NCBI RefSeq assembly: GCF_017565705.1
Contig: NZ_JAGDYL010000005.1
Coordinates: 124,001 to 188,000, forward strand
DNA from: Leucobacter ruminantium
Lineage (GTDB): Bacteria > Actinomycetota > Actinomycetes > Actinomycetales > Microbacteriaceae
Length of the DNA: 64,000 nucleotides
Direction: 5' to 3'
Shown here in pieces: positions 1,357-30,640 of this stretch. Each line of letters starts with the position of its first letter. The first letter of the stretch is position 1. The notes below the pieces were generated by a model, which searched no databases, had not been told where the DNA came from, and saw only the letters and a list, made by a program, of their open reading frames with translations. Position numbers and translations under genes: made by a program.

Positions 1357-3132
1357 TCATCCTGGCCTCGTGTGCGCGGCGCGCATCGTCTGCTCGATGA
1401 CCGCGCGTTCGGATCGAAGTCGGGTCGCATCCGGTCGTGTCAGCCACGAGCGCAAGTCCGCAACGATCGGTCGGGCCGAACGCAACACGACCACCCCGGT
1501 GCCGAACGGCAGCGAACGCAACGTCTCCGGCGGCAGCACCGGGACGCGCCGGATCGAACGCTGCAGGGACCGGCCCCCGTACTGATCGGTGCCGACCGTG
1601 TCGGTCGACTCGTCGCGCTCGCCGAAGAGCGCGGCGAGATCCTGCAAATCCTTGCTGTTCGATCCGCCACCGAGCACGACCTTGCAGATCGAGGCATCCC
1701 AGATCGCCTGCGCGGCGTGCTCACCCCACGATTGCCGCGCTTGCGCCAGCGATTGGAGGACCGGCTGACAGGTGATCCCGCTGCCGCCACCCTCAGCCAT
1801 CAACGTCGGGAGAGAGGGCAGAGGCGACAAGTTGCCGATCTCGTCCAACGTCATCAGTGCCGGCGGGTCGAGCCGTGCCCCAGGAGAGCGCGCCGCGATC
1901 CGCCGAGCGACTTCGACGAGATCCTCGATGAACGCGGCCACGAGCGCCGCGGACGCCGAGGCGCCACTGCCGGTCGCGAGGAGATACAAGGTCCCGTGGT
2001 CGAGGATGAACTGCTCGGGATCGAATCCGTCCTCGGGGCCGGGGCAGACCGCGTCCAGGACCCTCGGGTCGGCGAGCGACTGAAAGGCGAGTCCGACGCC
2101 CTGCCAGATGCTGTCCCTCGTTCTCGCATCCGCCGTCGCCATCGCCTCAAGCGAGTCCGCCCACCCATCGGCGGCGTCAGTCGAGCTCTGCAGGATCCGC
2201 ACGGCGTCCATCGCTGAGGTGGGGGAGAGCGCCCATTGATACAACGCTCGCGCATCCCGTCCGTCGATCGCCGCCGCGTGCAGCAGCGCCTGGATCGCCG
2301 AGCGCGTCTTGCCCTCCCAGAAGCCGCCGGACTCGACATCCCCGAACCCGGCGGCCGCGGCGAAGCCCGCAGCACGGATCATGGCGACCTGGGGGTCCTC
2401 ACATCCCCGGACCGGTGACCAGCGCATGCCCGCGGGAAGCCCGGGGGCGAGTCCTTGCGGATCGAACACCGCGACGCGGCCTTTGCGCTTGCGTGCCTCG
2501 AGCGTGATGGAGAGGGAATCGGGGCGGGTCGAGGTCGTGATGACACAACCCGGAGCGTCCAGGATGCTGTTGACCACCACGTGCAGGGATTTGCCGCTCC
2601 GGGGCGGGCCGATGACCAGCGTCGAGTCCTCGACGGTGCTCCACACCTCCCGACCCCGGGCCGAGCCCAGGAGATACCCGACCTCTTCCGGTGTCACGTC
2701 CTTCCCAGCGAGCGAGGGTCGCAACGTTCCTGCCTGCTGCAGTAGACGCTTCGCCGAGGCGACCTCCGAGATCTCGCCGCGGGTGGCGATCCCGTCGAGC
2801 CGGCGAGGGTTCGGCACCCGTTTGCGTCCTCGCCACCAGGCGACCAGCGCAACAGCCGGCACGCATACGGCCGCGAACATGAGCAGGGCGACCGGCCAAT
2901 ACACGAACGGTCTGAGCCCTGCGGCACCCAGTGCGCGCCCGGGATCCAATGGTGAAGCCAGCACTCCGATCGCTGACGCGAAGCCCCCGGCCGGTGCAGG
3001 CGTACCCGAGAGGAACGCGGCGATGGTCCCGGCCAGCCGCAGGATCCCCGTCGACGCCACGGCGGCGGCGAGGATCGCAAGGCCGACGTTGACGAGGTGA
3101 TCGTTGACGGGCCTGGGCGAGGAGAACGTCAC
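1357..3132 (-). CDS. VirD4/TraG-type coupling protein (conjugative ATPase)
   Basis: A 591-residue membrane ATPase that should deliver the relaxase-DNA complex to the type IV secretion channel. Two hydrophobic segments (about residues 14-40 and 78-100) anchor it. The Walker A motif GPPRSGKS is at 175-182 and a Walker B-like ALMTLDE is near 425-431, followed by GNL and a Gln-rich segment, as in TraG/TraD proteins. Size and motif spacing fit the family. The start is GTG at 3132 and its first bases overlap the stop of the upstream gene (GTGA), so the two are translationally coupled. It is the T4CP of the transfer apparatus encoded by the next genes upstream. Confidence 0.9.
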   Translation of the reverse strand: MTFSSPRPVNDHLVNVGLAILAAAVASTGILRLAGTIAAFLSGTPAPAGGFASAIGVLASPLDPGRALGAAGLRPFVYWPVALLMFAAVCVPAVALVAWWRGRKRVPNPRRLDGIATRGEISEVASAKRLLQQAGTLRPSLAGKDVTPEEVGYLLGSARGREVWSTVEDSTLVIGPPRSGKSLHVVVNSILDAPGCVITTSTRPDSLSITLEARKRKGRVAVFDPQGLAPGLPAGMRWSPVRGCEDPQVAMIRAAGFAAAAGFGDVESGGFWEGKTRSAIQALLHAAAIDGRDARALYQWALSPTSAMDAVRILQSSTDAADGWADSLEAMATADARTRDSIWQGVGLAFQSLADPRVLDAVCPGPEDGFDPEQFILDHGTLYLLATGSGASASAALVAAFIEDLVEVARRIAARSPGARLDPPALMTLDEIGNLSPLPSLPTLMAEGGGSGITCQPVLQSLAQARQSWGEHAAQAIWDASICKVVLGGGSNSKDLQDLAALFGERDESTDTVGTDQYGGRSLQRSIRRVPVLPPETLRSLPFGTGVVVLRSARPIVADLRSWLTRPDATRLRSERAVIEQTMRAAHTRPG

Positions 3133-14119: not shown

Positions 14120-15037
14120 TCACATGGACGGCCGCGATGCGGCTTCGCCCGACTCAAGCTCCGGAGAGACGGGCAGCGGCGCCGGGCCGCCGTCTTCCGG
14201 GGTCGTGGATGGGGTGGCATGCTGCGAGATCCATCGGTTCACCGTCGATCGATGCACGCCGATCTCCGCCGCGATCTCCCCGCCCGTGCGTCCGGCCGCT
14301 GCGAGCTCGAGTGCCCGCACCCGCAGTGCCGGGTCGACGCTCCGCCCCACCCCGGAGCCGCCGGTGCGCGGGGCACGCGTTCTCCCCGGCGTCGGCCGCG
14401 ACACGCTGCGCCCGGCCTGACCCTCGCCTGTGCTCCGCGGTGCCGCAGTCGTCGGCGTGCGTGAATCGTCGGCCGGGTGCGATTCGGCGCTGACCGGCAC
14501 CGCCGGAGCAGGGTCCGTGGCTTTCTCCCGTTCGGCCTGGGCAGGCGGTGCGTCTGGTTCTGGGTGGGCAGGGGTCTCCACGAGGAAGGGTTCGGTGGGG
14601 GTTCCGCGGCCTGCGTGGCGGATCAGCAGCACCGTCAGATGGGTGGCCGCGAGCAACGTCAAGGGCGGCACCGCCGCGATCGCACCGGCCAGCACGGCCG
14701 GCACTTCCGGCGGCGCCTGCAGCACCGAGTGGACGATGTTCGCGACCACCGACACCCCGGCTGAGAGCGCGAGGAGCGTCCACGGGTAGGCGACGATGCG
14801 CCAGCCGTGCCCGTCGAGGGAGAACACCGCCACAGTCGAGATCACGATGACGCCGTCGACGATCACCGCCCAGATCCAGGCCCGCTCCCCGCCGATCCCC
14901 GCCATCCGGGCGAGATCGGTGAGCGCGACAAACGACAGCCAGAACGCTCCGACGGCGATGATGACCGTGCCGGTGACGGCGACTTGCGCCGCCCACCAGC
15001 TCGGCGCGCGCCCCGCCCAGACCGTGCCGCTGCTCAT
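14120..15037 (-). CDS. DUF2637 membrane protein with C-terminal HTH
   Basis: A 305-residue protein. Residues about 15-145 contain four hydrophobic segments and resemble DUF2637 (SpdB-like) membrane proteins linked to mycelial or intercellular spread of actinobacterial plasmids. A Pro/Ala/Glu linker follows, then a helix-turn-helix near the C-terminus (residues about 235-275; LRVRALELAAAGRTGGEIAA and VHRSTVNRWI). A membrane domain joined to a DNA-binding domain is unusual and suggests tethering of the element's DNA to the membrane. It overlaps the ArdC-like gene by four bases. Confidence 0.75.
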   Translation of the reverse strand: MSSGTVWAGRAPSWWAAQVAVTGTVIIAVGAFWLSFVALTDLARMAGIGGERAWIWAVIVDGVIVISTVAVFSLDGHGWRIVAYPWTLLALSAGVSVVANIVHSVLQAPPEVPAVLAGAIAAVPPLTLLAATHLTVLLIRHAGRGTPTEPFLVETPAHPEPDAPPAQAEREKATDPAPAVPVSAESHPADDSRTPTTAAPRSTGEGQAGRSVSRPTPGRTRAPRTGGSGVGRSVDPALRVRALELAAAGRTGGEIAAEIGVHRSTVNRWISQHATPSTTPEDGGPAPLPVSPELESGEAASRPSM

Positions 15038-16128
15038 AGCCTGACCGCCTCCCGCTCCGCTGCGGGCTCCGGCTCGACCCCGGTCCCGATGCCGGGATCA
15101 GACGGGCCGGCGGACTCCGGCCGTGCGCTCCTCGCGGGCGCGTCAGGAGCGGGTGCGGGAGGCTTGCCGTCGCCGGAGACGGGCGCGTCGAGTTGGTCGA
15201 GCACGTCGCAGGCGACCGCGCGCACCCGCTCACCGACCTGCCGGATCACCTCTCCCGGTTTCATTCCCTCGACCGAAGACGCCCAGCCGGCGACATAGGG
15301 GATCGTGTACCCGTCGGGGTCCATCCCGTAACTGGCGCACACCATCGCCGCCAGCGACTCCGCCTCCACCTCGACCACGCCCAGACGGGAATCGCGGTCC
15401 GAGGTCCTCGGATCATGCATGAGGACGTGCCCGAGCTCGTGCAACGCCGTTCGCGCGCGTGCGGCGGCATCCATGTCCGAGCGGACGAGCACATCCTTCG
15501 ACCGGAAGTTGGTCATCCCGTTCGCCGTGCCGAGCTTCGCCGCAGGCACATCGACGACGTCGAACCCCGCAGCCCGGATCTGGCCGGTCACCCCCTCCCA
15601 CAGGCCTGCCGGGGCCTCCCCGCGCAGCAGCTGCGGCTCCGGACGTTCCGGGATCGGCTTCCCGTCGGTCTGGGAGACGTCCCACACCGTTCCGGGTCTC
15701 GTGCCCGCCATGCGCCGGCGCACCGTCTCGCCCGGGCGCGGCTTCTCTCGGAAGCGCAGCCTCCGCCACTCCCCGGACCCCGGGTTCGCCGACGCCCACC
15801 GTTCGAACACCGGGGAACGCACGATATACCCGGTCTGGCCGGAGGCCGGCCACCGGCCGAGCTTCTGCCACTCCGAATACCCGGCCACATAGGTGGGCGA
15901 CGGGTTCGGGACGCGCCCCTCGGCGTGCGCGTCGGCGTGCTGGACCGCGATGGCGAGGCTGTTCAACCAGCTCCGGGACCGGAACCGCCCCGCGAACGCG
16001 ACCGCGCTCAGCCACTGTTCCCCGGTGACCAGCTGCTCCACCCGGCGTTCAATGTGCCCCTCGAGCTGGGTGAGGCGTTCCGCACGGTACGCCTGCACCT
16101 CCTCGGCACTCATCTTGCGTCGCGCCAC
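15034..16128 (-). CDS. ardC: ArdC-like antirestriction protein with zincin domain
   Basis: A 364-residue protein. Residues about 15-130 match the ArdC-type N-terminal ssDNA-binding domain (GFRSRSWLNSLAI-like segment, then YVAGYSEWQKLGRWP). Residues about 200-300 are an ImmA/IrrE-type zincin with HELGH at 230-234 and a downstream Glu-rich helix (EVEAESLAAMV). Such proteins protect incoming transferred DNA from restriction. It is the first gene of the leftward block and starts next to the large palindrome at 16429-16589, a position expected for a gene expressed early in a recipient. The tail after residue 300 is Pro/Ala rich. Confidence 0.8.
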   Translation of the reverse strand: MARRKMSAEEVQAYRAERLTQLEGHIERRVEQLVTGEQWLSAVAFAGRFRSRSWLNSLAIAVQHADAHAEGRVPNPSPTYVAGYSEWQKLGRWPASGQTGYIVRSPVFERWASANPGSGEWRRLRFREKPRPGETVRRRMAGTRPGTVWDVSQTDGKPIPERPEPQLLRGEAPAGLWEGVTGQIRAAGFDVVDVPAAKLGTANGMTNFRSKDVLVRSDMDAAARARTALHELGHVLMHDPRTSDRDSRLGVVEVEAESLAAMVCASYGMDPDGYTIPYVAGWASSVEGMKPGEVIRQVGERVRAVACDVLDQLDAPVSGDGKPPAPAPDAPARSARPESAGPSDPGIGTGVEPEPAAEREAVRL

Positions 16129-16653
16129 CCCTCACACCTCCCGACCGATACGCCGCACCGCCAGGCACGGTCGCGGATTCTGGATCGGAGGTGCCGGTAC
16201 CGCGTCAGCGCCGACGGAGATCCGGAGAAGAGAGGCAACGCACCTCCATACCGGAAGCGTGCGCCACGCCTCGTACCGACACGCCAAAACCGAGCGCTGA
16301 GCTGCGGTTTCTGAGCGAATCCCAGCGATCCCAGCCGGCAGGGAGCGCGAGTGCCGCGCCACCGGTACGTGGCAATCGCGCGCCGCGTACCTCGTACAGC
16401 CCAGGAGACGTGTTCTGGCAATCCTTCGGATTGCCTTTCGGCTGGCCGATTGTACGGACCCGGGCCGCCTCGTCCAGGCACGCGAAAAGTCTTCGCCCGC
16501 GCTGCGCTTATTTCGGGCGAAGACTTTTCGCTCTGCGGCCTGGACCAGTCGTCCCGGCCCCGTATCGGCACAAGTGCCGAAAGGCAATCGCGAGATAGGG
16601 GCCTGCCCGCAGGTACCCGGCTCGCGGCTCACCGATACGAAAGGAACCGGACC
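16129..16653. other. Divergent 525-bp control region between ardC and parB-like genes
   Basis: No gene is supported here; the long leftward frame that crosses it (16132-18573) is antisense to the ParB-like gene. It should carry both promoters. It also holds a hairpin GGCAATCC-TTC-GGATTGCC (16417-16435) and the nested palindrome described separately. It is a candidate for oriT or for single-strand promoters of the conjugative element. Confidence 0.6.
16429..16589. repeat. Nested palindrome, about 160 bp (candidate oriT or ssDNA promoter)
   Basis: The outer arms are a perfect 14-bp inverted repeat (GATTGCCTTTCGGC at 16429-16442; GCCGAAAGGCAATC at 16576-16589). Next inside are GTCCAGG (16473-16479) and CCTGGAC (about 16540-16546). 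The core is a perfect 18-bp inverted repeat (GCGAAAAGTCTTCGCCCG at 16482-16499; its complement at 16514-16531) around a 14-base loop. The intervening stretches also match each other imperfectly. A folded single strand would make one long cruciform arm. It sits between divergent ardC and parB-like genes. Confidence 0.8.
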
Positions 16654-18219
16654 ATGTCCAACGCCACACTCACCCAGGCCCCCGCCGTCGAACTCAGGGT
16701 CGTCGACGCGCGGGAGGTCGTCGTGGATGCCAACATCCGCGCGAACACCAAGATCGACCGGGGGTTCGTCGCCCTCATCAAGCGCTACGGCGTCATGGTG
16801 CCCCTCCTGGGGCACCTGACCGAGGACGGGCGCGTGAAGATCGAGGACGGGCAGCGCCGTATCCTCGGCGCCATCGAAGCCGAACGCTACGAGGTGCCCG
16901 TCTACATCGTGCCGGAGAACGACACCGAGGCACGCCGCATCGTGCGGCAGCTCATCGCCAACGACGCACGCGCCGAGCTGGACGAGGGGGAGCGCGTCGC
17001 CGCCTGGCAGCAGCTCGAACTCGAAGGCATGAGCGCCACGGCGATCGCCCGCGCCGTGGGGGAGAAGCCCAAGCGCATCAAGGCCGGCCTCTCCGTCGCC
17101 GCCAACAGCACCGCGACCGAAGCCGTCAAGGAATACCAGATGACCTTCGATCAGGCGCTCATCCTCGCGGAGTTCGAGGACGACGCCGAAGCGGTCGAGA
17201 AGCTCCGCCACACGGCAGCGCACAGCCCCGGCCAGTTCGAGCACGTCGCGCAGCGGCTGCGCGATCTGCGCGCGGAGCAAGCCCAGATCGACGCCGTGGT
17301 CGCGCAGTACACCTCCCAGGGGTTCATCCAGATCGACCATCCGAGCTACGACGACAAGGACACCCTGCGCGTCTCCGACCTCTCCCACGCGGACGGCAGC
17401 GACATCACCGAGGAGGACTTCCCGAAGCTCCCCGGATTCCGCTTCGCCGTCTCGAGCGGCTGGCAGGGCGTGCGCGTCGTCCACTACGTGACCGACTGGA
17501 AAGCCGACGGGCTCAAGCGCCGCCGCTCCGACGGGACCGCGGTCACCCCCTGGACGGAGGAAGAGAAGGCCGAGCGGAAGCGCCTGGTCGCCAACAACAA
17601 GGCATGGCGCAGCGCCGAGGTCGTCCGTCGCGAGTGGCTGACGAGCTTCCTCGTCCGCAAGACCACCCCGAAGCAGGCGCAGAAGTTCATCGCGACGAGC
17701 GTGATCGACGGGCGCGGGCTCCTCTCCCGCTCCATCACCGAGCATCACCGGCTCGCGACCTCGCTCCTGGGCCTCCCGGACTACCAGTGGGGAACGGAAC
17801 ACCCCATCCTCACCCACATCACGAAGCAGCCCGCCCGCATCCGGATGGTGATGCTCGCGATGACCATCGCCGCCCACGAGGAGGCCACCGGTACGCACAC
17901 GTGGCGCAACCCCGGCACGGAGATGCGCGACTACTTCACCGCCCTCAGCGAGTGGGGCTACCCCCTCTCCGACGTGGAGAACATCGTGATCGGCATCGAC
18001 CCCGCCACCGCCGAGAGCGATGCCGGAGACGACGCTGACGCCGCCGAGAGCGACAGAGAGGCCAGCGACACCGCCGAGGCCGACGCTGCTGAGCCGGAGC
18101 CGGAGCCGGAGCCGGATGCTGGCGATACGCAGGCCGATGCCGTGGTGGAAGTCGACCCGAGCGACGACGCCGCGGCGGAGCCGGTGACCGAGGTCGACCC
18201 AGCCCCGGCCGCCGCGTGA
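16654..18219 (+). CDS. ParB-like partition/regulatory protein, first gene of rightward block
   Basis: A 521-residue protein. Residues about 12-90 form a ParB N-terminal domain (VVVDANIRANTKIDRGF, GVMVPLLGHLTEDGRVKIED, GQRRILGAIEAERYEVPVY), followed by a KorB/ParB-like HTH region (GMSATAIARAVGEKPKRIKAG, about 130-150). The rest is helical. The last 75 residues are an acidic Glu/Asp/Ala/Pro repeat (AEPEPEPEPDAG). The start ATG 16654 has AAAGGA upstream. Such proteins are widespread in actinobacterial conjugative elements and are probably regulators or DNA organisers rather than true partition proteins, since no ParA is seen. Confidence 0.8.
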   Translation: MSNATLTQAPAVELRVVDAREVVVDANIRANTKIDRGFVALIKRYGVMVPLLGHLTEDGRVKIEDGQRRILGAIEAERYEVPVYIVPENDTEARRIVRQLIANDARAELDEGERVAAWQQLELEGMSATAIARAVGEKPKRIKAGLSVAANSTATEAVKEYQMTFDQALILAEFEDDAEAVEKLRHTAAHSPGQFEHVAQRLRDLRAEQAQIDAVVAQYTSQGFIQIDHPSYDDKDTLRVSDLSHADGSDITEEDFPKLPGFRFAVSSGWQGVRVVHYVTDWKADGLKRRRSDGTAVTPWTEEEKAERKRLVANNKAWRSAEVVRREWLTSFLVRKTTPKQAQKFIATSVIDGRGLLSRSITEHHRLATSLLGLPDYQWGTEHPILTHITKQPARIRMVMLAMTIAAHEEATGTHTWRNPGTEMRDYFTALSEWGYPLSDVENIVIGIDPATAESDAGDDADAAESDREASDTAEADAAEPEPEPEPDAGDTQADAVVEVDPSDDAAAEPVTEVDPAPAAA

Positions 18220-18233
18220 TCTGCCCCTGAGAG

Positions 18234-18261
18234 GTGGGGCCGGGCCTGCGCCCGGCCCCAC
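18234..18261 (+). terminator. Hairpin after parB-like gene
   Basis: Perfect 12-bp stem GTGGGGCCGGGC / GCCCGGCCCCAC with a 4-base loop, starting 14 bases after the ParB-like stop codon and 25 bases before the start of the broken dprA-like gene. A likely intrinsic terminator or attenuator that partly insulates the two genes. Confidence 0.65.
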
Positions 18262-18286
18262 CCGCCACCCTTGGGAAGGACTCATC

Positions 18287-19322
18287 ATGCCCACCGACCG
18301 AGGCGAGCGCGACGCTCGCATCGCCCTCGCCGGGGCCTGTCGCCCCGGCGACCCCGTCACCGGACGGCTCATCGACGCGTACGGCACCGTCGAGACCGTC
18401 GCCATCGCCCGCTCCGGGAAACGCCCGGCGCTCCTCACCGACGCCGGGTTCGAGACCTGGCTGGCGCAGGTCGCACCCGCCCTCGATCCTGGCGCATGCG
18501 AACACCGGGCGCGCCTCACCGAGGAGCAGGCGCTCACCACCCTCACCCCCGATGACGCCGCCTGGCCGCACACGGGGCTTGCCGCACACGGGGCTTGCCG
18601 CGCTCGGGGAGCGTGCGCCGCTTGCCCTCTGGACGCGCGGCCGCAACGAACTGATCGCTGAGGGGATCGTGTCGCGGCTGACGATCACGGGCACGCGTGC
18701 CCCGTCGCGGTACGGCAACGAGATCGCACGAGACTTCACCTACGCCCTCGTCGAGCAGGGCATCATCATCGTGTCGGGCGCGGCCTACGGGATCGACGGC
18801 ATCGCGCACCACGCGGCGCTGACCATCGACCGCGACACCATCGGGGTGCTCGCTAGCAGCATCGACCGCCCCTATCCGGCAAGCAACACGAGCCAGATCC
18901 GCCGCATCGGCGACGACGGCCTCCTGATCACCGAAACCCCGCCCGGCGCGCCGCCACCGACCGTCACGCGTGTCCAGCAGCGGGCGAGGCTCCTCGCCGC
19001 CCTCTCCGGGGCGACCCTCATCGTGGAGGCGGCAGAGCACTGCGAATCGCTCAGGGTCGCAGACCACGCGCTCGCCCTCGGTCGCCCGGTCGCGGCGATC
19101 CCCGGCCCGATCACCGCCGGCGTCTCCGGCGGCTGCCATCTCCTCATCGGCGACGGACGCGCCCGCCTGGTCTCCACACCCGAGGACGTCGCACAGCTGT
19201 GCGCAGGGGCGAACTCCCGCCCACCCGCCCCGCTTCCCCCGGTCCTGGACGAGCCGGCCGCGCTCACTCGGGAACGCTCCGGCGCCGGACGACTCACCCG
19301 CATCGAACGGATCGCATCATGA
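18287..19322 (+). pseudogene. dprA: DprA/Smf-like gene, frameshifted by a 16-bp tandem duplication
   Basis: It starts at ATG 18287 behind GGAAGGA and reads as a DprA-like protein up to residue about 97 (DDAAWPHTGLAA). It then shifts frame and stops at 18661. The rest, including SGAAYGIDGIAHHAAL and the DNA-processing Rossmann core, is in another frame to 19322. The break is an exact duplication of GCACACGGGGCTTGCC (18568-18583 and 18584-18599). Removing one unit restores WPHTGLAALGERAPLALW, which aligns with the intact paralogue at 19751. It is a recent pseudogene or a slippage-switchable gene. The N-terminus (ERDARIALAGACRPGDPVT) also matches the paralogue. Confidence 0.85.
18568..18599. repeat. 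16-bp perfect tandem duplication inside dprA-like gene
   Basis: GCACACGGGGCTTGCC occurs twice in tandem. Sixteen is not a multiple of three, so the second copy shifts the reading frame. A slip back to one copy would restore the gene. Confidence 0.95.
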
Positions 19323-19750: not shown

Positions 19751-20779
19751 ATGACCACCGATTTCTCCGACGACCGCCACGCCCGGATCGCCCTCGCCTC
19801 CGCCACGCGCGCCTGCGACCCGGTCACGCGTGCGATCCTGACCCGCTATACGCCTGCCGAAGCGATCGATGTCGCATTCCGCGGGCAGACCCCGCGCGGG
19901 GTGAGGCGAGCCGAGTACGAGGCGTGGCAGGCGGGCGTCGCCCCACGGCTGGACGCGACGCTCATCGACGCGGTCATCACGCAGACCGAGCGCGCCGGGT
20001 TCACCCCGCTCACGCCGCGAGACCCGGCCTGGCAGCTGACGGGGTTTTCCGACCTCGGCACCGCCCAGCCCATCGTCCTCTGGGAACGAGGCGCAGGCAG
20101 TCTCCTCATGACCCGGCGCACCGACCGGATCGCGATCACCGGGGCACGGGCCGCGACCGGCTACGGTGTGCACCAGGCCGCGGAGATCAGCGGCGAACTC
20201 GCCGAACAGGAGGCCGTGATCGTCTCCGGCGCGGCCTACGGCATCGACGCCGCAGCCCACCGGTCAGCCCTCGCCACCGGCGGTCACACGATCGCCGTCC
20301 TCGCCAGCGGAGTCGACCGCCCTTACCCACACCCGCACACCGAGCTGATCGAGCGCATCGCCGACCTGGGGCTGGTCGTCAGCGAACAAGCACCGGGTGC
20401 GGCTCCCACGAGGCAACGGTTCATGGACCGACATCGGCTCATCGCGGCGCTCTCATCGAGCGCCGTCATCGTCGAGGCCGGCCCCCGCTCCGGCTCGCTC
20501 CGCCTAGTCGACGAGGCACGCGCACTCGGCAGACCGGTCGGCGCGGTGCCCGGCCCGGTCACCTCCCTCGCGTCCACGGGCACGAACAACCTGATCCATA
20601 CGGGCAAAGCCCGGCTCGTGTCGAACGCCCGCGAAGTGGTCGAACTCACCGCCGCCCCCAGTAGCCAGGGGCAGACGCCGGGAGCGGCCAGGACGGGGCC
20701 TGAGGCCTCCCTTGACCCGACCCAGAGCACGTTCGCCGTCTCGGAGCCCGAGCAGCGAGGCCGCGGTCTGAGCGCCTAG
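19751..20779 (+). CDS. dprA: DprA/Smf-like DNA-processing protein, intact paralogue
   Basis: A 342-residue protein. After a helical N-terminal region (ARIALASATRACDPVT), residues about 110-290 form the DprA Rossmann-type core: ITGARAATGYG near 136, VIVSGAAYGIDAAAH near 160-175, VLASGVDRPYPHPH near 190, RLIAALSSSAVIVEAG near 225-245 and AVPGPVTS near 270. DprA binds incoming single-stranded DNA and loads RecA during natural transformation. Element-borne copies are expected to act on ssDNA entering a recipient, but this is inference. It starts at ATG 19751 behind GGGAG. It is homologous to the broken gene just upstream. Confidence 0.85.
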   Translation: MTTDFSDDRHARIALASATRACDPVTRAILTRYTPAEAIDVAFRGQTPRGVRRAEYEAWQAGVAPRLDATLIDAVITQTERAGFTPLTPRDPAWQLTGFSDLGTAQPIVLWERGAGSLLMTRRTDRIAITGARAATGYGVHQAAEISGELAEQEAVIVSGAAYGIDAAAHRSALATGGHTIAVLASGVDRPYPHPHTELIERIADLGLVVSEQAPGAAPTRQRFMDRHRLIAALSSSAVIVEAGPRSGSLRLVDEARALGRPVGAVPGPVTSLASTGTNNLIHTGKARLVSNAREVVELTAAPSSQGQTPGAARTGPEASLDPTQSTFAVSEPEQRGRGLSA

Positions 20780-22330: not shown

Positions 22331-22565
22331 CCCGCTCGATACTGGGTGGCCGGCCAGGCGACACCGGGGCGGCCATCCCGGTGATCAGGTCGTATCGACG
22401 CGCACAAGACCGCTCCCAGTCCAGCACCTCCGAGAGGGATGCAGCAAGAGCGATAGCTCGACGGACTCCGTGAGACGGTCTTCGACGTGGTCCACGCCTC
22501 CCGGCGACACGCCCGGGAACCGCCAGTGCTCGAGTGCTCGGAGTCGGCCGCGCATACGCATTCAC

Positions 22566-22724
22566 ATGAACAGAAAAGACGAGTTCCCAGAAGAGTCGCA
22601 GTCGCGTCGCCGTCACCGTTGGAGCCGCTGCCTCATCGCCGTCTCAGCAGTGAGTCGCTGGACCCCACCAATCATTCGGTTGCTTCGGTTCCTCATCGAG
22701 CTCTTCCCACCACCGTTCCTCTGA
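22566..22724 (+). CDS. Possible 52-residue small protein
   Basis: ATG 22566 opens a frame of 52 codons that encodes a basic N-terminus (RRRHRWSRC) and a hydrophobic C-terminus (PIIRLLRFLIELFPPPF). This composition would suit a small membrane-associated peptide. There is no clear ribosome site and no neighbour spacing that supports it, so it may be chance. Confidence 0.25.
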   Translation: MNRKDEFPEESQSRRRHRWSRCLIAVSAVSRWTPPIIRLLRFLIELFPPPFL

Positions 22725-22847
22725 CCATGCCCACAGTGGGAACCCGGCCGCGTAACCGGAAGAGCGCGGAAGTCGCGCACACGCTCACGAGAATGCCAGC
22801 GCTCTACCCAGTCGGCGCCACCCTTCTGCGCTCAGGCAGGCCGTGCC

Positions 22848-22949
22848 GGCGGCACAGGCTACGGCGCTCCCGGCGGCTGCGGCCGGCGCCGCGCCCGTCC
22901 TCCGGCCGCCGCGTCGCGTCCTCCGCCACCGGTGCGCACCGTCGACGCC
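22848..22949 (+). repeat. 102-bp leader repeat, copy 2
   Basis: Perfect match to 21674-21775. It lies 50 bases before ATG 23000. The sequence after the repeat also ends in GGCAGAAAGGA before the start codon, as in copy 1. Confidence 0.9.
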
Positions 22950-22999
22950 CGTACTGCCGCAACGCCCACCCCGAGGCGACGGCAGAAAGGACCACGACC

Positions 23000-23482
23000 A
23001 TGAGCGCCTTCATCGTCTCCATCCACCACATCCGAGCCCTCGTCAACGCCGGCCTCAACGCCCGGTACGGCCAGCCCCTGAGCTGGCGCATACGCCCCCT
23101 CACCGCAGAAGAACGCGCCGGCTCATACGAACCCGGCGAGCCCTGGGGTCCCGACGCCATCGTCATCAGCGGACAGCTCAGACGAGAACTCACCCCGGAA
23201 TCGGCCGAACTGGTCGGCTCGATCCTCCTCGCCGAGAACCAACGATCCGTGAACTACCGCTACGACGAGAACGAACTCGAGTACGTCTACACCCACCGCC
23301 CCTCCCGTCCGCGAACTCCGGTCGAACTCCTCAAAGCCATCGACTGCTACGAGTACCAGGCGTGCGAGACCCCCGACTGGGAGGACAGCGAAGCCGCCGC
23401 ATTCTGCGAAGCCCTCCGCAGCCACCTCATCGGAGACCTCCCCGGCTACCACGACGCCCCCTGGAGCATCGACGAACAGTAA
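23000..23482 (+). CDS. Conserved hypothetical accessory protein of conjugative elements
   Basis: A 160-residue soluble protein. The order of short conserved-looking motifs (FIVSIHHIRALV near the start; LAENQRSVNYRY near 77; LLKAIDCYEYQACETPDWE near 113) resembles a plasmid-borne family that I know only as hypothetical. A role in early establishment or antidefence is possible from its neighbours, but nothing in the sequence proves it. It starts at ATG 23000 with GAAAGGA upstream and is followed by a strong terminator. Confidence 0.65.
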   Translation: MSAFIVSIHHIRALVNAGLNARYGQPLSWRIRPLTAEERAGSYEPGEPWGPDAIVISGQLRRELTPESAELVGSILLAENQRSVNYRYDENELEYVYTHRPSRPRTPVELLKAIDCYEYQACETPDWEDSEAAAFCEALRSHLIGDLPGYHDAPWSIDEQ

Positions 23483-23491
23483 CCACCCCAC

Positions 23492-23527
23492 GGGTCGCCG
23501 CCCTCGAGCCTCTGAGGGCGGCGACCC
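23492..23527 (+). terminator. Hairpin terminator
   Basis: Perfect 14-bp stem GGGTCGCCGCCCTC / GAGGGCGGCGACCC with an 8-base loop, ten bases after the stop codon at 23482. Confidence 0.75.
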
Positions 23528-23589
23528 TGTGCCCGTGCAGCCCATACCTGCTGTTCAGGCGCGTACTTCGAAACAACAGAACAGGCGCG

Positions 23590-23705
23590 AAGCCATTCGG
23601 CGGCAAATTGTGCAGGTCCGGGCACGGCCCGTCAAGGCACGCTCCGCTCTTCGGCCTTGACAACCCGCACCCGCACCCGCAGCGCGATAAGTGCCGAAAG
23701 GCACA
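23590..23705 (+). promoter_or_regulatory. Hairpin leader related to the 16.5-kb palindrome
   Basis: It contains an 8-bp inverted repeat GTCAAGGC (23631-23638) / GCCTTGAC (23654-23661) and then AAGTGCCGAAAGGCA, which is also found at 16573-16586. The stretch before the hairpin (TTGTGCAGGTCCGGGC) also resembles TTGTACGGACCCGGGC at about 16450. The two regions look like diverged copies of one control element, each placed before the first gene of a rightward gene set. Confidence 0.55.
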
Positions 23706-23727
23706 TTCCAAACCGAAAGGACACCCC

Positions 23728-24090
23728 ATGCACACCACCCCAGCGCTCGCCGCAGCGGGCGAGATCATCACTGTTTCCGGCTACCCGCTCGTGAAGCCGG
23801 TCACCATCGAGTACGCATACCCCGACACCGAGAATCACGGCACCGGCTGGCTGCTGTCCATCTCCCAGGCCGTCGCGATCCTCGACGCGTGGAAGCACGC
23901 GCCCCGCGGCGATAGCGACGTCGTCCGCGAATGGTGCTACAGCGCGGCGGGCCTGTTCGTCACTGCCCTGTACATCGACGGCGACGTCGTGCTCTCCCTC
24001 TGGGAGTCCGCGGCCGGCTCAGACGGCACCGACCGATACGCCACCGCGACCATGCCGTTCGACTTCGAGACGACGGAGGCGACACGATGA
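23728..24090 (+). CDS. Small hypothetical protein, first of a three-gene overlap string
   Basis: A 120-residue soluble protein with beta-rich character (ITVSGYPLVKPVTIEYAYPD near the start, ALYIDGDVVLSLWES near 87). No family recognised. ATG 23728 with GAAAGGA. It overlaps the next gene by four bases (ATGA) and shares a hairpin leader with the element's control region. Acidic, like many antidefence proteins, but this is only suggestive. Confidence 0.6.
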   Translation: MHTTPALAAAGEIITVSGYPLVKPVTIEYAYPDTENHGTGWLLSISQAVAILDAWKHAPRGDSDVVREWCYSAAGLFVTALYIDGDVVLSLWESAAGSDGTDRYATATMPFDFETTEATR

Positions 24091-24835: not shown

Positions 24836-24881
24836 AGTAGGGCGGGTGCGCCGACGAGACGGTCGGCGCACCCGCCCTACT
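24836..24881. terminator. Long perfect terminator stem
   Basis: Perfect 20-bp arms starting AGTAGGGCGGGTGCGC, with a 6-base loop (24856-24861), followed by ATTTG. It ends the block of small rightward genes and is the longest perfect short-loop hairpin I noticed in the window. Confidence 0.8.
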
Positions 24882-24897
24882 ATTTGCGTCGCCCAAT

Positions 24898-25213: not shown

Positions 25214-26332
25214 ATGGTCGGAGAGTTCCCTGGTTCTGCGCGGCTGATGCTCGTGCCCGGCGTGGTGCATCTGAACGAACGCGCGGCCGTGTTCGAGGCG
25301 ATGGTCGCTGGCTGGACGCGCCAACAACTGTCGCGGCAGCTAGGCTCGTCGACGTTGCAGGATCGCGAGCGGCTCATCCGCCGCTTTCAGGACTTCACCG
25401 AGCGGTACCCGTGGGAGTGGACGCCGGCCGATGTGGAGGACTTCACGGTATCGCTGACGTATGGCGCGGATCGACTCGCGGTCTCCACGATCCGCGGCTA
25501 CCACCTGACGTTGCGGCTGTTTTGCGATTACGTCACCGATGCACGCTATGAATGGCCGATGCAATGCCAGGATCGCTTCGGCACGTTCCCCGTGCAGGTG
25601 TGCAATGAGTGGAACACGGTCGCGCACCTGAACGAGTACGAGGGGAAGCCGCAGCGACGCCCGCTGACCTACCGGGAGCTGCAGGACCTGTTCGACTGGC
25701 TCGATGCACGCATCGAGCAGATCGTGCGCCTCGGGCGGAAGGGCTCGCTTGCTGCGTGGCGCGACGCGACGATGATCAAGACGACCTATGGGTTCGGGCT
25801 GCGCCGCAACGAGCTCGTGCGCCTCGACCTGCCGGATCTGCGACCAAACCCGCACATACGAGGCTGGGGCACCTACGGGTCGATCCATGTGCGGTTCGGA
25901 AAGGCGATGAAGGGCTCGCTACCCAGGCGCCGCACCGTCCTCGCCGTACCCGAGCTCGACTGGGCCGTTGAAGGGCTGCGGCAATGGGTCGAAGAAGGCC
26001 TGCCGCTCTTCGAGGCGGGCGACCATCCCGCGCTGTGGTTGACGGAGCGACGCAGCCGGGTCAGCGTCCGCCACGTCGATGAGCTCTTCGCCGACGCCCG
26101 GACCGAGATCGGTCTCGAGGAGCATCTGACCCTGCATTGCCTGCGGCACTCGTACGTGACGCATCTGATCGAGTTCGGTTACCCGGAACGATTTGTCACC
26201 GAGCAGGTCGGGCACCGGTGGGGATCGACAACCGCGATCTACACCTCGGTGTCCAACGACTTCAAGAACAAGACCCTGCAGGCCGCGCTGGCCCGGTTCT
26301 ACCGAACCGACGAGGAGGCGAGCCCATCATGA
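25214..26332 (+). CDS. Tyrosine recombinase / integrase
   Basis: A 372-residue site-specific recombinase. The N-terminal SAM-like core-binding domain covers about residues 20-125 and the catalytic domain 150-355. Catalytic residues visible are R197 (GLRRNEL), Lys in GKAMKG (230 or 233), H308-x-x-R311 (LHCLRH), H334 (GHRWGS) and the nucleophile Y343 (AIYT). All key residues are present, so it should be active. The start ATG 25214 has GGAGGTGG. It overlaps the next gene by four bases, forming a recombinase - Xre - zinc-ribbon trio. It may serve as integrase for a small mobile unit rather than for the whole conjugative element. Confidence 0.88.
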   Translation: MVGEFPGSARLMLVPGVVHLNERAAVFEAMVAGWTRQQLSRQLGSSTLQDRERLIRRFQDFTERYPWEWTPADVEDFTVSLTYGADRLAVSTIRGYHLTLRLFCDYVTDARYEWPMQCQDRFGTFPVQVCNEWNTVAHLNEYEGKPQRRPLTYRELQDLFDWLDARIEQIVRLGRKGSLAAWRDATMIKTTYGFGLRRNELVRLDLPDLRPNPHIRGWGTYGSIHVRFGKAMKGSLPRRRTVLAVPELDWAVEGLRQWVEEGLPLFEAGDHPALWLTERRSRVSVRHVDELFADARTEIGLEEHLTLHCLRHSYVTHLIEFGYPERFVTEQVGHRWGSTTAIYTSVSNDFKNKTLQAALARFYRTDEEASPS

Positions 26333-26667
26333 GGACGATCCAGATGCAGTGGAACCTGCGGCAGGTCATGGCCGACCGGGGCATGTTCCAGACCAGCGAG
26401 CTGCTGCCGCTGCTGGAAGAACGCGGCATCCACCTGACCCGCGAGCACGTCTACCGGCTCGTGACCAAGACCCCGCAACGGCTGAACACCGAGGTCCTCG
26501 TCGCCCTCTGCGACGCACTGGCCTGCACCCCGAACGACCTCATCGAGCCAGTCGTCACCGAGCAGCGGGCCACCCGCACTGGCACGCGTAACGAGGGCGG
26601 TCCGAAGATCGGGTCAATCCGGCCAGTGCGGGCGGTGATCCGCAGACCAGACGGCGTCGACGAGTGA
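26329..26667 (+). CDS. Xre-family HTH regulator of the trio
   Basis: A 112-residue protein with a Cro/CI-type helix-turn-helix over residues about 8-75 (LRQVMADRGMFQTSELLPLL, then LNTEVLVALCDALACTPNDL), of the short YozG-like type. A basic tail follows. It overlaps both the recombinase gene and the zinc-ribbon gene by four bases. It probably regulates or assists the recombination machinery. A diverged relative is encoded alone at 31391. Confidence 0.8.
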   Translation: MRTIQMQWNLRQVMADRGMFQTSELLPLLEERGIHLTREHVYRLVTKTPQRLNTEVLVALCDALACTPNDLIEPVVTEQRATRTGTRNEGGPKIGSIRPVRAVIRRPDGVDE

Positions 26668-28112
26668 ACGCTCATCGAGTACCCGTCTGCTCTCGATGCC
26701 GCCAGCGTGCGGGATCGTTCGATCTGCCCGGAGGAGCGATCTGCCTACTCTGTTGCCGCTACCTCGCCTACCACCCCGAACGCTGCCCGGCCTGCTTGCA
26801 GTTACGACCGCTTACCTACCCCTCGCCGGCAGTGCCCAACGAGATGATCTGCGCGGACTGCGCCGATCGGCCACCGGTGTTCGTCTGCGAGACCTGCGGC
26901 CGCCACGACCACCCCTACAAGAGTCGCCAGTGCGCCAGATGCGTGCTTACTGAACGACTCAGCGCGCTGCTGCGCGACCCGAGCACCGGCGAGATCCGCG
27001 CACAGTTGCAGCCATTATTCGACGAGCTCGTCGGATCTGACCGGCCCCAGAACGCCATCACCTGGCTCCAGCGCCCACCCGGACACGGCCCGGCACTGCT
27101 GCGGCAGATGGCGACAGGCGAGGTCGCGATCTCGCACGGGACCTTCGCCAGGCTCCCGATGACCCGTGGCCGCAACTACCTGCGTGACCTGTTGGTCGCG
27201 CTCGAGGTGCTCGAGCCCTACGAGCCACTCATCGAACGGATCGAACCGTGGCTCCAGCAGCGCCGCGTCGGCCTCAACGACGTGCACCGCCAGACGATCG
27301 AGCAGTTCGCCCGCTGGGTGGTCTTACGTCGGCTCCGCACCGCCGCCGAACACGGAACGCTGACCAAAGCCATGGCCGAGGGCGCCCGGCAGCGGCTCAA
27401 CCGTGCGATCGACCTGCTGGCATGGCTCGAACACGAACACACCACGATCCTCGAACTCACGCAGCCACGCCTCGAGCTCTACCTCGCCGACCAGCCGCCG
27501 TCGGTGCTGCATGCGTTCATCACCTGGCTGAACCGCACTGGTATCAACGACCGCATCCTCGTGAAGAACCCGAGCCCCACGACCGCGAACGTCACCATGG
27601 GTGACGCCGATCGCTGGCGCCACGTCGGCGCCCTCCTGCACGACGACTCGGTCCTGCTCTACACCCGCATCATCGGCCTCTTCATGCTGATATTTGCCCA
27701 GCCGCTCACCCGAGCCTGCAGTCTCCGCACCGATCAGATCCGCGCCACCGACCCCGGGCCGGTGTTCGTCACCTTCCACAACACCGCGGTCGAGATGCCC
27801 GAACCGCTTGGGGAGCTCATCCGGCAGCAGCTCACCCGGCGCGGAAAAGCTTCGTACGCTTCTCGAGATAACGGGTGGCTCTTCCCGGGCGGCATCCCTG
27901 GCCGACCCATGGCAACCGAGAATGTGCGCGGGCACCTCGTCGCGCTTGGCATCGCACCGCACCAGGCCCGACACGCGGCGCTCTTCGCACTCTCGGCGGA
28001 GGTGCCGCACATGATCCTCGCCCAGACGCTCGGCATCTCCTTGAGCGCGGCACGTACCTGGGCCGCCCTCGCCTCCCGGGACTGGGGCGCATACATCGCC
28101 GCACGAACCTGA
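26664..28112 (+). CDS. Zinc-ribbon protein with degenerate tyrosine-recombinase-like C-terminus
   Basis: A 482-residue protein. Six CxxC pairs lie in the first 93 residues (C9/12, 27/30, 41/44, 63/66, 75/78, 90/93), enough for three zinc ribbons. The middle is helical. The C-terminal 170 residues resemble a recombinase catalytic fold (QPLTRACSLRTDQI, then PHQARHAALFALSAEVPHM and LGISLSAARTWAALA). The usual Arg, His-x-x-Arg and Tyr set is incomplete, and the Tyr position reads as Trp. It is probably a DNA-binding partner of the active recombinase. Such trios are seen in Actinobacteria without a described mechanism. Confidence 0.65.
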   Translation: MNAHRVPVCSRCRQRAGSFDLPGGAICLLCCRYLAYHPERCPACLQLRPLTYPSPAVPNEMICADCADRPPVFVCETCGRHDHPYKSRQCARCVLTERLSALLRDPSTGEIRAQLQPLFDELVGSDRPQNAITWLQRPPGHGPALLRQMATGEVAISHGTFARLPMTRGRNYLRDLLVALEVLEPYEPLIERIEPWLQQRRVGLNDVHRQTIEQFARWVVLRRLRTAAEHGTLTKAMAEGARQRLNRAIDLLAWLEHEHTTILELTQPRLELYLADQPPSVLHAFITWLNRTGINDRILVKNPSPTTANVTMGDADRWRHVGALLHDDSVLLYTRIIGLFMLIFAQPLTRACSLRTDQIRATDPGPVFVTFHNTAVEMPEPLGELIRQQLTRRGKASYASRDNGWLFPGGIPGRPMATENVRGHLVALGIAPHQARHAALFALSAEVPHMILAQTLGISLSAARTWAALASRDWGAYIAART

Positions 28113-28185: not shown

Positions 28186-28590
28186 TCAGGTCAGTTCAGC
28201 GACGAGGGTGCGGACGCGGTTCTCGATGTCGTCGCGAATGGTCCGCACTGTATCGGTTCCTTGGCCTGCGGGGTCGTCGAGCGGCCAGTCTTCGTAGCGT
28301 TTGCCGGGGAAGATCGGGCAGGTGTCTCCGCAGCCCATCGTGATGACCACGTCCGCGGCGCGTACGGCGTCGGTGGTGAGCAGCTTGGGCTGTTCGGCGG
28401 TGATGTCGATACCCACTTCGGCCATCGCTTCGACCACGGCCGGGGTGAGCCGGTCGGCGGGCTCGGAGCCGGCGGAGCGGACCTCGACCCGGCCCTCCGC
28501 CATGCGGGTGAGGTAGGCGGCGGCCATCTGGGAGCGTCCGGCGTTGTGGACGCAGACGAACAACACCATCGGGAGCTGCGGGGTGGTCAT
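28186..28590 (-). CDS. arsC: Arsenate reductase, low-molecular-weight phosphatase type
   Basis: A 134-residue enzyme that reduces arsenate to arsenite so that it can be exported. The Cx5R loop C13-VHNAGR19-S is near the N-terminus. A late Asp region (EDWPLDDPAG, about 102-111) supplies the general acid. The fold is that of the thioredoxin-coupled or mycothiol-coupled Cx5R family rather than the glutaredoxin type. The start overlaps the stop of acr3 by four bases, so it is the last gene of the arsM-acr3-arsC operon. The long upstream reading frame is antisense noise. Confidence 0.92.
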   Translation of the reverse strand: MTTPQLPMVLFVCVHNAGRSQMAAAYLTRMAEGRVEVRSAGSEPADRLTPAVVEAMAEVGIDITAEQPKLLTTDAVRAADVVITMGCGDTCPIFPGKRYEDWPLDDPAGQGTDTVRTIRDDIENRVRTLVAELT

Positions 28591-29705
28591 GATGCCTCGG
28601 TTTCTGTCTGGTAGGGGTCGGTGTGGAACCAGCGGCGTGCGGTCCAGAGAGAGACGTAGACGAGACCGACGAGGACGGGCACCTCGATCAGCGGGCCGAC
28701 GACCCCGGCCAGGGCCTGCCCGCTGGTGGCGCCGAACGTGCCGATGGCGACGGCGATGGCGAGCTCGAAGTTGTTGCCCGCCGCGGTGAACGCCAGCGTG
28801 GTCGAGCGGGCGTAGCCGAGGCCGAGGCTCTTGCCGAGGAGGAGCCCGGCGAACCACATGAGCGCGAAATAGACCAGCAGGGGCAGGGCGATGCGGGCGA
28901 CGTCGAGCGGTTGGTTGGTGATCTGCTCGCCTTGGAGGGCGAACAGCAGCACGATCGTGAACAGCAGCCCGTATAGCGCCCACGGGCCGATCCTCGGCAC
29001 GAAGCGCTCTTCGTACCATTCGCGGCCGCGGCGTTTCTCACCGATCCAGCGGGTCGCGAACCCGGCGATCAGGGGTACGCCGAGGAAGACAAGGACATTG
29101 AGCGCGATCTGCCCGACCGACACGTCCAGGCCCTGGGTGTTCAGGCCGAGCCAGCCGGGGAGGATGGTGAGGTAGAACCAGCCCAGGAGCGAGAACGCGA
29201 TGACCTGGAAGATCGAGTTGATCGCCACCAGCACCGCGGTCGCTTCCCGGTCGCCGCAGGCGAGGTCGTTCCAGATCACGACCATCGCGATGCAGCGTGC
29301 GAGGCCGACGATTATCAGCCCGGTGCGGTACTCGGGCAGGTCTGGCAGGAAGAGCCAGGCGAGGGCGAACATCACCGCAGGGCCGAGGAACCAGTTCAGC
29401 AGCAGGGAGGAGATGAGGAGGCGTGTGTCGCCGGTGACGGCGGCGATCTTGTCGTAGCGGACTTTCGCGAGCACCGGGTACATCATCACTAGCAGGCCCA
29501 GACCGATCGGCACCGAGATGCCCGCGACCTCCATCCGGGTGAGCACGTCGGCGAGGACGGGCACGAACCGGCCGAGGAGAAGGCCGGCGATCATCGTCAG
29601 CCCGATCCAGGCGGGCAGCCACTTGTCCAACGTCGACAACCGCCCTCGGCCGGCGGGCGCTGGCGTAGCGGTCGTGCTCGTGGTGGTGTTCTCGGGTGCG
29701 GGCAT
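28587..29705 (-). CDS. acr3: ACR3-type arsenite efflux permease
   Basis: A 372-residue membrane protein with ten hydrophobic segments that exports arsenite. The conserved Cys of helix 4 is in VGLARCIAMVVIWNDLACGD, and the helix-9 region reads AFTAAGNNFELAIAVAIGTFG, both signatures of ACR3. A short Thr/Ala-rich N-terminus precedes helix 1. I chose ATG 29705 over 29726 because GAGGAG lies about 13 bases ahead of it; both are possible. It lies 40 bases after arsM and overlaps arsC. Confidence 0.93.
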   Translation of the reverse strand: MPAPENTTTSTTATPAPAGRGRLSTLDKWLPAWIGLTMIAGLLLGRFVPVLADVLTRMEVAGISVPIGLGLLVMMYPVLAKVRYDKIAAVTGDTRLLISSLLLNWFLGPAVMFALAWLFLPDLPEYRTGLIIVGLARCIAMVVIWNDLACGDREATAVLVAINSIFQVIAFSLLGWFYLTILPGWLGLNTQGLDVSVGQIALNVLVFLGVPLIAGFATRWIGEKRRGREWYEERFVPRIGPWALYGLLFTIVLLFALQGEQITNQPLDVARIALPLLVYFALMWFAGLLLGKSLGLGYARSTTLAFTAAGNNFELAIAVAIGTFGATSGQALAGVVGPLIEVPVLVGLVYVSLWTARRWFHTDPYQTETEAS

Positions 29706-29744
29706 GCTCGGTCGTGCTCTCCTCATCGACTCGCGATTGCGGGG

Positions 29745-30563
29745 TTAGGCGGTGGGCTTGGTGGCGCGGATGATCGCGGCGTGCATCCCGTCAGCGGCCT
29801 CGTGGGTGAACTCCACGCTCGCATCCGTGAACCCCGCCGCGGCCAGCCCGTCCAGGTACTCGGATCGTGAGAGGGCACCGGCGATGCAGCCGACGTAGGA
29901 GCCGCGCTCGGCCCGCTGATCCGGGGTGAGTCGATCTTCGGCGACGACATCGGAGATCCCGATCCGCCCGCCGGGGGTGAGGACGCGGAACATCTCGGCG
30001 AGCACGGCCGGCTTGTCGGTGGAGAGGTTGATCACGCAGTTGGAGATCACCACATCCACCGCCCCATCCGACAGGGGCACGTCCTCGATGGTGCCCTTGA
30101 GGAACTCCACGTTCGTCGCTTCGGTCTGGGCCTTGTTTGCCTCCGCGAGTTCTAGCATCTCGTCGGTCATGTCGACCCCGTAGGCGAACCCGGTCGGCCC
30201 GACCCGCTTCGCGGACAGGAGGACGTCGATGCCGCCACCGGAGCCGAGATCGAGCACCCGCTCACCCTCGTGCAGCTCAGCCACCGCGGTCGGGTTCCCG
30301 CAGCCGAGACTCGCCTCGACCGCTTCCAACGGCAGGCCCGCGGCAGTCGCCTCGTCGTACAGGCCCGCCCCGAAAGCGCGTTCGGTGGGAGCACAGCACG
30401 ACCCGGCGTCGGTCTCCTCAGCAGCAGGCGCGCTGGCACAGCACGAGCCAGCGGGGGTTTCCTCGGTCAGGAGGTCGGCGTTGCGTGTGCCCGTGGCGAC
30501 GGCGGTCGCGGCTTGGGCGTAGCGGTCGCGGACCTGCTCGCGCAGCTCGGTGTTCTGGCTCAT
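29745..30563 (-). CDS. arsM: Arsenite S-adenosylmethionine methyltransferase
   Basis: A 272-residue enzyme that methylates arsenite to volatile or less reactive species. SAM motif I LDLGSGGGID is at 104-113. Cys residues at 88 (SLGCGNP), 176 (SNCVINL) and 226 (VGCIAGA) match the arsenic-binding positions, and two CC pairs (41-42, 56-57) sit in a flexible N-terminus. ATG 30563 has GAGGAG. It is the first gene of the operon, divergent from arsR across a 91-bp control region. Confidence 0.93.
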   Translation of the reverse strand: MSQNTELREQVRDRYAQAATAVATGTRNADLLTEETPAGSCCASAPAAEETDAGSCCAPTERAFGAGLYDEATAAGLPLEAVEASLGCGNPTAVAELHEGERVLDLGSGGGIDVLLSAKRVGPTGFAYGVDMTDEMLELAEANKAQTEATNVEFLKGTIEDVPLSDGAVDVVISNCVINLSTDKPAVLAEMFRVLTPGGRIGISDVVAEDRLTPDQRAERGSYVGCIAGALSRSEYLDGLAAAGFTDASVEFTHEAADGMHAAIIRATKPTA

Positions 30564-30595
30564 CGTGTGCTCCTCAGTTCATCGGCTGTCCGACT

Positions 30596-30640
30596 ACATA
30601 TTGATATTCTTCGATGTATCGACAGTTGTCAATACGTGGC
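30596..30640. promoter_or_regulatory. Divergent ars promoter and ArsR operator
   Basis: The arsM-arsR gap contains the palindrome TCGAT-GT-ATCGA (30611-30622) inside a larger dyad with ATTGA (30600-30604) and TCAAT (30629-30633). The stretch is AT-rich for this DNA. It would let ArsR repress both directions until arsenite binds. Confidence 0.7.

Follow-up and report, generated by a model that had tools for sequence, protein, structure and literature searches.

In Leucobacter ruminantium a large nested palindrome, here called E1, separates an ArdC-like gene that points left from a ParB-like gene that points right. It is probably a promoter that works on single-stranded DNA and belongs to the leading region of a conjugative element, with the minus strand serving in the recipient. 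An earlier sequence-only reading of the window (the whole 64,000-nucleotide stretch analysed, part of a contig of 246,554 bases in a genome of 3.3 Mb) had made two guesses on the palindrome: an origin of transfer (oriT) or a single-strand promoter of the Frpo/ssi type. The first did not stand. The second is strongly supported on computational grounds, the only kind used here: the promoter lies in the 3′ arm, the pairs covary, one strand is favoured, the context fits a leading region and copies recur before ssb and other genes. The palindrome, the promoter motif and its strand, the covariation, the strand bias, the recurrence before the same kinds of gene and the position of the relaxase were all obtained by computation; from them we infer RNA polymerase binding, the start site, the timing and the transfer of the minus strand in this element.

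The palindrome and the motif in its 3′ arm

The architecture described in the sequence-only reading was recovered in full. The outer repeat is a perfect one of 14 bp (16429-16442/16576-16589), the inner repeat a perfect one of 18 bp (16482-16499/16514-16531), and the matching material between them is a 27-nt middle repeat (16453-16479/16538-16564) that is 81% complementary; the structure of about 160 bp (16429-16589) lies, as had been said, between the divergent ArdC-like and ParB-like genes. On the minus strand, which is presumed to be the transferred one, 16429-16442 is the 3′ arm of the outer stem, 100% complementary to 16576-16589, which the repeat search gave as its 5′ arm, the putative template. 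The 3′ arm of the middle stem (16453-16479), the putative non-template strand, contains the −35 element and the first two bases of the −10 element and faces the 5′ template arm at 16538-16564, while the 3′ arm of the inner stem (16482-16499) has a T-tract upstream of the −35 and pairs with the 5′ arm at 16514-16531. The apex (16501-16507) reads GCGCAGC, a GNA-triloop DNA mini-hairpin motif present on the minus strand of E1 and absent from the plus strand. At 16417-16435, also on the minus strand, a competing hairpin, GGCAATCC-GAA-GGATTGCC, can capture part of the outer 3′ arm.

The fold is far stronger than chance would give. As single-stranded DNA, 16410-16605 folds at −68.4 kcal/mol (plus) and −76.5 kcal/mol (minus), dinucleotide shuffles at −37.2 and −37.4 kcal/mol (z −9.3 and −12.1), and none of 200 shuffles matched the native fold. 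When 180-nt stretches were ranked over the window in steps of 30, the minus strand of E1 came out as the strongest and its plus strand as the fourth.

Three features had been absent from the sequence-only reading: the promoter motif, the strand asymmetry and a shorter second copy, E2 (23590-23704, minus strand). E2 was first found by BLAST and scores 104.9 bits with the covariance model R1, of whose five training sequences it is itself one. A promoter-pattern scan of both regions, blind to the hairpin positions, gave a single σ70-like site in 16100-16700 and a single one in 23470-23760, each on the minus strand and inside the hairpin (one found versus 0.0 in shuffles, in both cases). In E1, the −35 hexamer TGGACG (16471-16476, minus strand) is paired to the 5′ arm (0.83), and the −10 hexamer TACAAT (16449-16454, minus strand), across a 16-nt spacer, is partly unpaired (0.50 paired); the sequence of this −35 was counted against the promoter reading. 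In E2, TTGACG (23630-23635) and CACAAT (23607-23612), both on the minus strand, are 17 nt apart. No rightward promoter was found by the pattern scan upstream of either hairpin. Exit through the base of a hairpin needs, by geometry, the non-template strand in the 3′ arm and the −10 nearer the base; both are seen, and hence transcription would be aimed rightward, into 16654-18219 and 23728-24090.

Relatives of the hairpin and the genes behind them

Plain BLAST with 16400-16640 returned the second window site and hairpins in three of 99 other genomes (G042, G051 and G018); the match in a fourth, G084, is 29 nt long and looks like chance. Model R1, built from five elements, was applied to the best 80 of 148 loci around parB-like genes, and model R2, built from 10 elements, was used to score seven candidates per genome. 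At E ≤ 0.05, R1 found members in 15 of these 80 parB loci, most of which are thus without a detectable hairpin; the members amount to 16 hairpins, a count that excludes the always lower-scoring reverse-strand echoes of the palindromes. R2 was positive in 12 of 398 genomes of the family, that of L. ruminantium included, and the hairpin is present in four of 54 Leucobacter genomes, with one weak partial match besides. Relatives are known from Leucobacter, other Microbacteriaceae, Jiangella, Metallococcus and Arthrobacter. R1 found nothing in the 19-20 kb surrounding the parB relatives in Leucobacter G003 and G041, R2 found nothing on pMspBDGP8A (L149), and a fixed 20-base outer-arm pattern matched in one of 100 genomes only. 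Seven parB relatives were found in the viral collection.

Six hairpins lie directly before parB (Leucobacter CAMFIY010000073, that is G042, Leucobacter Ag1, that is G018, Jiangella muralis, Metallococcus carri, Lacisediminihabitans profunda and an Actinomycetales MAG), five directly before a Pfam-confirmed ssb (L040, L041, L055, L062 and L063), two before a glutaredoxin/nrdH-like gene (L049 and L054), one before a dprA-like gene (L062) and one before an unknown gene (L069); for that of L114 the start rule used gave no gene. On p232 of Arthrobacter sp. Rue61a there are six R2 matches (E 3e-9 to 0.89), five of which are copies of one repeat (L150:7439-14957), each with a hairpin and each before a different rightward gene. 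Four copies precede annotated genes at 7861, 9653 (DUF4192), 13482 and 14944 (ParB), and the fifth an unlisted frame at 11548 with a DprA match of 1e-61. The dprA-type copy of L062 (16220-16358, plus strand) scores weakly and stands before a leftward gene; the parB and ssb copies of that locus point right. Hairpins of the nrdH type (L030:7006-7153, minus strand; L049:13817-13965, L054:301-449 and L148:15063-15211, plus strand) have a near-invariant inner segment, CGTGGAATACCGG...GAGGATATGCCGCGAAAGCC, and adjoin a MOBP-type relaxase in L030, L049 and L054. They are oriented against parB, those of L030 and L049 apparently on the non-transferred strand.

The promoter motif recurs in these relatives. 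By eye, the 3′ arm on the gene-opposite strand of the five BLAST-found elements has two promoter-like hexamers, one resembling a −35 and one a −10, at a spacing of 16 or 17 nt. Mean pairing to the 5′ arm was 0.92 for the −35 and 0.23 for the −10 (Wilcoxon p 2e-6) in 20 elements, those which matched the motif among 22 supplied, mostly motif-bearing, L040 and L141 being lost. Such a state, with the −35 paired and the −10 open, would suit both recognition and easy opening. A regular-expression promoter occurred in 29 of 46 model matches (15/24, 12/14 and 2/8, with a slightly different pattern between sets), the misses being mainly weaker ssb/dprA-type matches and p232. On the latter the strict pattern was found in none of the six model matches; by eye, four of the five repeat copies have TAGACG-N16-TAGAAT at the equivalent place. 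A scan for motif plus arm in the best 80 of 148 parB loci, independent of the covariance model, gave six hits on the gene-opposite strand, none on the parB strand and none in both controls at one strict setting, and 37 versus 29, 7 versus 3, 0 versus 0, 8 versus 5, 6 versus 2, 13 versus 4 and 28 versus 24 (gene-opposite strand versus control) at others; its outcome hinges on the box chosen and it is not relied on.

Gene starts were called by a rule (ATG or GTG within 150 nt, a ribosome-site-like motif, at least 60 aa and coding-like third positions). They lay on the predicted side of 34 of 39 hairpins, at 14-87 nt, and on the other side of a single one, E2, where the frame is antisense to that of 22487-23482; the 39 cases are not independent, because near-duplicates were kept (L138/L139, L144/L145, L054/L142/L148a and the p232 copies), and they omit the weak L061 pair and L105. 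Of the five hairpins for which no gene was called, one, on p232, stands before an annotated gene of 46 aa, below the size cut. L133, L134 and L147, which have the sequences of L039, L048 and L041, were excluded from the triloop, gene-start and 3′-foot counts; the L110 and L047 matches were excluded from these and from the promoter-pattern count, from which the short locus L140 was dropped. In the window, the ATG of the ParB-like gene (16654-18219, plus strand), for which the folded minus strand is the predicted template, is 66 nt from the hairpin; the gene matches TIGR00180 with an E of 3.6e-9, under the model cut-off, and has no Pfam match. The gene behind E2 (23728-24090, plus strand) encodes 120 aa, has no Pfam match either and starts with an ATG 23 nt after the hairpin.

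These positions bear on two alternatives. The hairpin might be a single-strand initiation site that mainly primes second-strand synthesis, in an ssi or sso role, with gene expression being secondary. The geometry would be the same, priming of DNA synthesis by Frpo transcripts has been reported (PMC7736820) and copies on either strand would be less problematic; however, the short distance to gene starts and the several copies before different genes on one plasmid fit gene control better, and we consider a mainly priming role unlikely. Less probable again, and by a good measure, is an ordinary leftward double-strand promoter, serving ardC here and mob genes in some relatives, with the palindrome as operator or cruciform. 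The motif does read left in duplex DNA, and ardC is divergent here and in seven of the 22 ArdC-bearing loci among the best 80 of 148; but such a promoter would be antisense at E2, G051a and the p232 copies, because genes of the same direction lie upstream, the other arm covaries too, and a left gene start within 150 nt is found in only one of the 39 cases, though divergent ardC starts lie further off.

Covariation and strand asymmetry

In the 10 model-aligned elements 93.3% of the cells pair, and both partners have changed in 21 of 42 pairs. The double-changed cells number 51 versus 17.4 (sd 3.2) when shuffled, and covariation is 0.350 versus 0.145 shuffled and at most 0.079 with a slid partner, in an alignment that was fitted to the structure from five of its 10 elements and so leans towards it, the other five being outside training. 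The −35 stem itself covaries, with GTCAAG/CTTGAC, GTCCAG/CTGGAC in E1, GTGCAAGG/CCTTGCGC (one G-T pair) and GTCTA/TAGAC in p232.

The two strands are not equivalent. The gene-opposite strand gives the better fold, with DNA parameters, in 22 of 23 elements (L114 is the exception), a type of test that is biased because the model-found elements came from a model of that strand; among the five plain-BLAST elements it folds better in all five. On the gene-opposite strand of the 10 aligned elements, G-T cells number 18 and A-C cells five. Triloops of the C-GNA-G type with a stem of at least 2 bp stand in the central half of the gene-opposite strand in 26 of 35 elements, versus eight for the gene strand and 6.9 for shuffled sequences; with a stem of at least 3 bp the figures are eight, none and 1.8. 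This set omits L063, L138, L142, L145, L148a, p232_4 and p232_6 and includes the weak L061 pair and L105. GNA mini-hairpins are described as unusually stable in DNA (PMC4686876). A hairpin of at least 6 bp at the 3′ foot was found in nine of 31 elements, eight of them with a GNA triloop, and none was found on the 5′ side. It captures part of the outer 3′ arm in E1, G018, L109, L048, L049, L054 and L114; for G051b and L146 the scan chose a different hairpin further out.

A structured leader in the mRNA of the parB-like gene, that is, RNA of the gene strand, would place a hairpin just upstream of start codons, where it is found. Yet the gene strand is the one that folds worse in 22 of 23 elements, the excess of G-T over A-C cells favours the opposite strand, the promoter and the GNA loops are on that strand as well, and an Rfam search of the window gave no match; the leader was rejected as a scarcely credible explanation.

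Neighbourhood, presumed transferred strand and known systems

To the left of E1, the ArdC-like gene (15034-16128, minus strand) is divergent and would not be templated by the presumed transferred strand. Its own match is to Peptidase_M78 only; in G018 and G042 the corresponding ArdC-like genes match ArdcN as well. Among the best 80 of 148 parB loci, ArdC-like genes occur in 22, leftward and away from parB in seven and rightward with parB in 15. A type IV secretion coupling protein of the TraG/VirD4 type is encoded at 1357-3132 (minus strand). The rightward block contains two DprA-like genes in tandem (18234-19322 and 19754-20779, plus strand), and dprA-like genes are also found behind parB in G042 and G018. 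DprA handles single-stranded DNA, so that an establishment role of the two genes is possible. Just past the last gene of the block, a strong GC-rich inverted repeat seen by eye at 24837-24882 (GTAGGGCGGGTGCGCCGAC.../...GTCGGCGCACCCGCCCTAC) is a probable terminator. Further right, in 25214-28112 and 28587-31038, there are two tandem integrase-like genes (the second a weak match), then an SBF-family transporter, a methyltransferase and, by eye, an ArsR-like reading frame. A TrwC/MOBF relaxase-helicase gene lies at 31864-35463 (plus strand), on the predicted lagging side; relatives of this relaxase occur in 39 of 54 genomes of the genus, often in several copies. Since the integrases and the ars-like cargo separate the block from the relaxase, that both belong to one element is something we infer.

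Leading-region genes are reported to have the transferred strand as their template, and the relaxase to be encoded in the lagging region (PMC11541004). Transfer of the minus strand would thus require an oriT and a relaxase on the right of E1, and the position of the relaxase suggests that the rightward block is the leading region. In G018, ardC, hairpin, parB-like gene, dprA-like gene and TrwC relaxase follow one another in this order within about 9 kb. Of the best 80 of 148 parB loci, 18 have a recognised relaxase gene, which is on the parB strand in all 18 and downstream in 17 (the exception is L054), and 18 have an ssb, on the parB strand in 17. On p232, typed as conjugative/MOBF, all six model matches are on the minus strand with the relaxase to the right, in the same gene order; the order on pMspBDGP8A is compatible only if read around the circle.

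In the best 80 of 148 parB loci, 12 of the 16 primary hairpins are oriented with parB and four against it: those of L049 and L054 (glutaredoxin/nrdH), that of L114, for which no gene was found, and the dprA-type copy of L062. G051b and one copy of pL3i23 (L148) also point the opposite way. Opposed copies count against the single-stranded-promoter reading, because transfer of a single strand could serve hairpins of one direction only. Next to the hairpin of G051b and L049 is a conserved inverted repeat plus TATAGCTTGCTC, which, by analogy, we take to be a MOBP nic site. The nrdH hairpin of G051b and L049 would then, in our reading, lie on the non-transferred strand, and by the same analogy the parB-side genes of L030 and L049 would be templated by the transferred strand, as a single-stranded promoter requires. 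The placement of the reversed nrdH-type copies is comparable to that of gene ygfA of F, which is nearest oriT, reversed and expressed only after duplex formation; no hairpin is described there in the parts of the source available (PMC9849209).

The oriT of the window was not located: the inverted repeats upstream of its relaxase are weak, and the regions upstream of MOBF relaxases, searched for a conserved oriT, share only the gene start with the window. That E1 itself is the oriT, as would suit a large palindrome within a conjugative element, is the least probable explanation, since there are two copies in the window and six matches on p232 where one site per element is expected, the copies head protein-coding genes, no relaxase or accessory gene is adjacent here, and a separate, conserved oriT-like site lies beside mobC in the MOBP relatives L030 and L049.

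We propose the following model for E1 as a single-stranded promoter. The minus strand would enter the recipient as single-stranded DNA and fold into a long stem, whose 3′ arm would be the non-template strand of a σ70-type promoter, with the −35 in duplex and the −10 in a pre-opened bubble, and whose 5′ arm would be the template. The host RNA polymerase would start near 16570-16580 and exit via the hairpin base into the parB-like/dprA-like block; E2 would act likewise for the gene at 23728. Synthesis of the duplex would iron out the hairpin and silence the promoter. As reported for Frpo, the RNA may in addition act as a primer for the second strand. A wider and much more tentative proposal is that the family could be an independently evolved class of single-stranded promoters of Actinomycetota that works as a strand-state switch. 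Single-stranded DNA would fire right into establishment genes (parB-like, ssb, glutaredoxin/nrdH and dprA-like), the same −35 and −10 would fire left in duplex DNA (into ardC or mob), the GNA apex would nucleate folding and the competing GNA hairpin at the 3′ foot would free the template arm.

Action of RNA polymerase on a folded single strand is also a property of the sso of rolling-circle plasmids. These serve priming and are not known to be placed before each of several operons, whereas the present copies stand before genes. EGeRS1/EGeRS2 of the Bacillus pLS20 family are alike in being a regulatory sequence repeated before several establishment operons of a Gram-positive conjugative plasmid (PMC8708921). 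In the part of that source available, EGeRS1 is argued not to be a single-stranded promoter, since its fold contains no promoter and the template is not the strand that is transferred (PMC8708921); here, in contrast, the promoter is inside the fold and the side of the relaxase favours the template strand for the parB-oriented copies.

Single-stranded promoters have been shown for the enterobacterial F and ColIb-P9 (PMC9849209, PMC7736820, PMC11541004), whose hosts differ from those considered here; for an element of Streptococcus pneumoniae, the source, as far as available, states that no sequence is similar to Frpo (PMC11541004). Among the matches listed from the open-licence literature, no report of actinobacterial single-stranded promoters was recognised by title or start of abstract, and blastn of 16400-16640 against 72,556 plasmid records at E up to 1 revealed no homology to Frpo, giving three records, each with E 0.7 and none F-like. 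If actinobacterial conjugative elements have a covarying family of this kind, expression of establishment genes from incoming single-stranded DNA would seem to be a more general strategy, and the family model flags candidate leading regions in a poorly annotated phylum. In Frpo1/Frpo2 of F and ssi2/ssi3 of ColIb-P9, as proposed here, a stem-loop of the transferred strand rebuilds the −35 and −10, repeated copies precede leading-region operons, including ssb, and the genes are templated by the transferred strand (PMC9849209, PMC7736820, PMC11541004). In E1 and E2 the stem of one single strand holds the −35 and −10, and members of the family stand upstream of ssb in five relatives and, in the window, of a parB-like and an unknown gene; strand exceptions aside, the E1 family resembles Frpo in the features visible in sequence.
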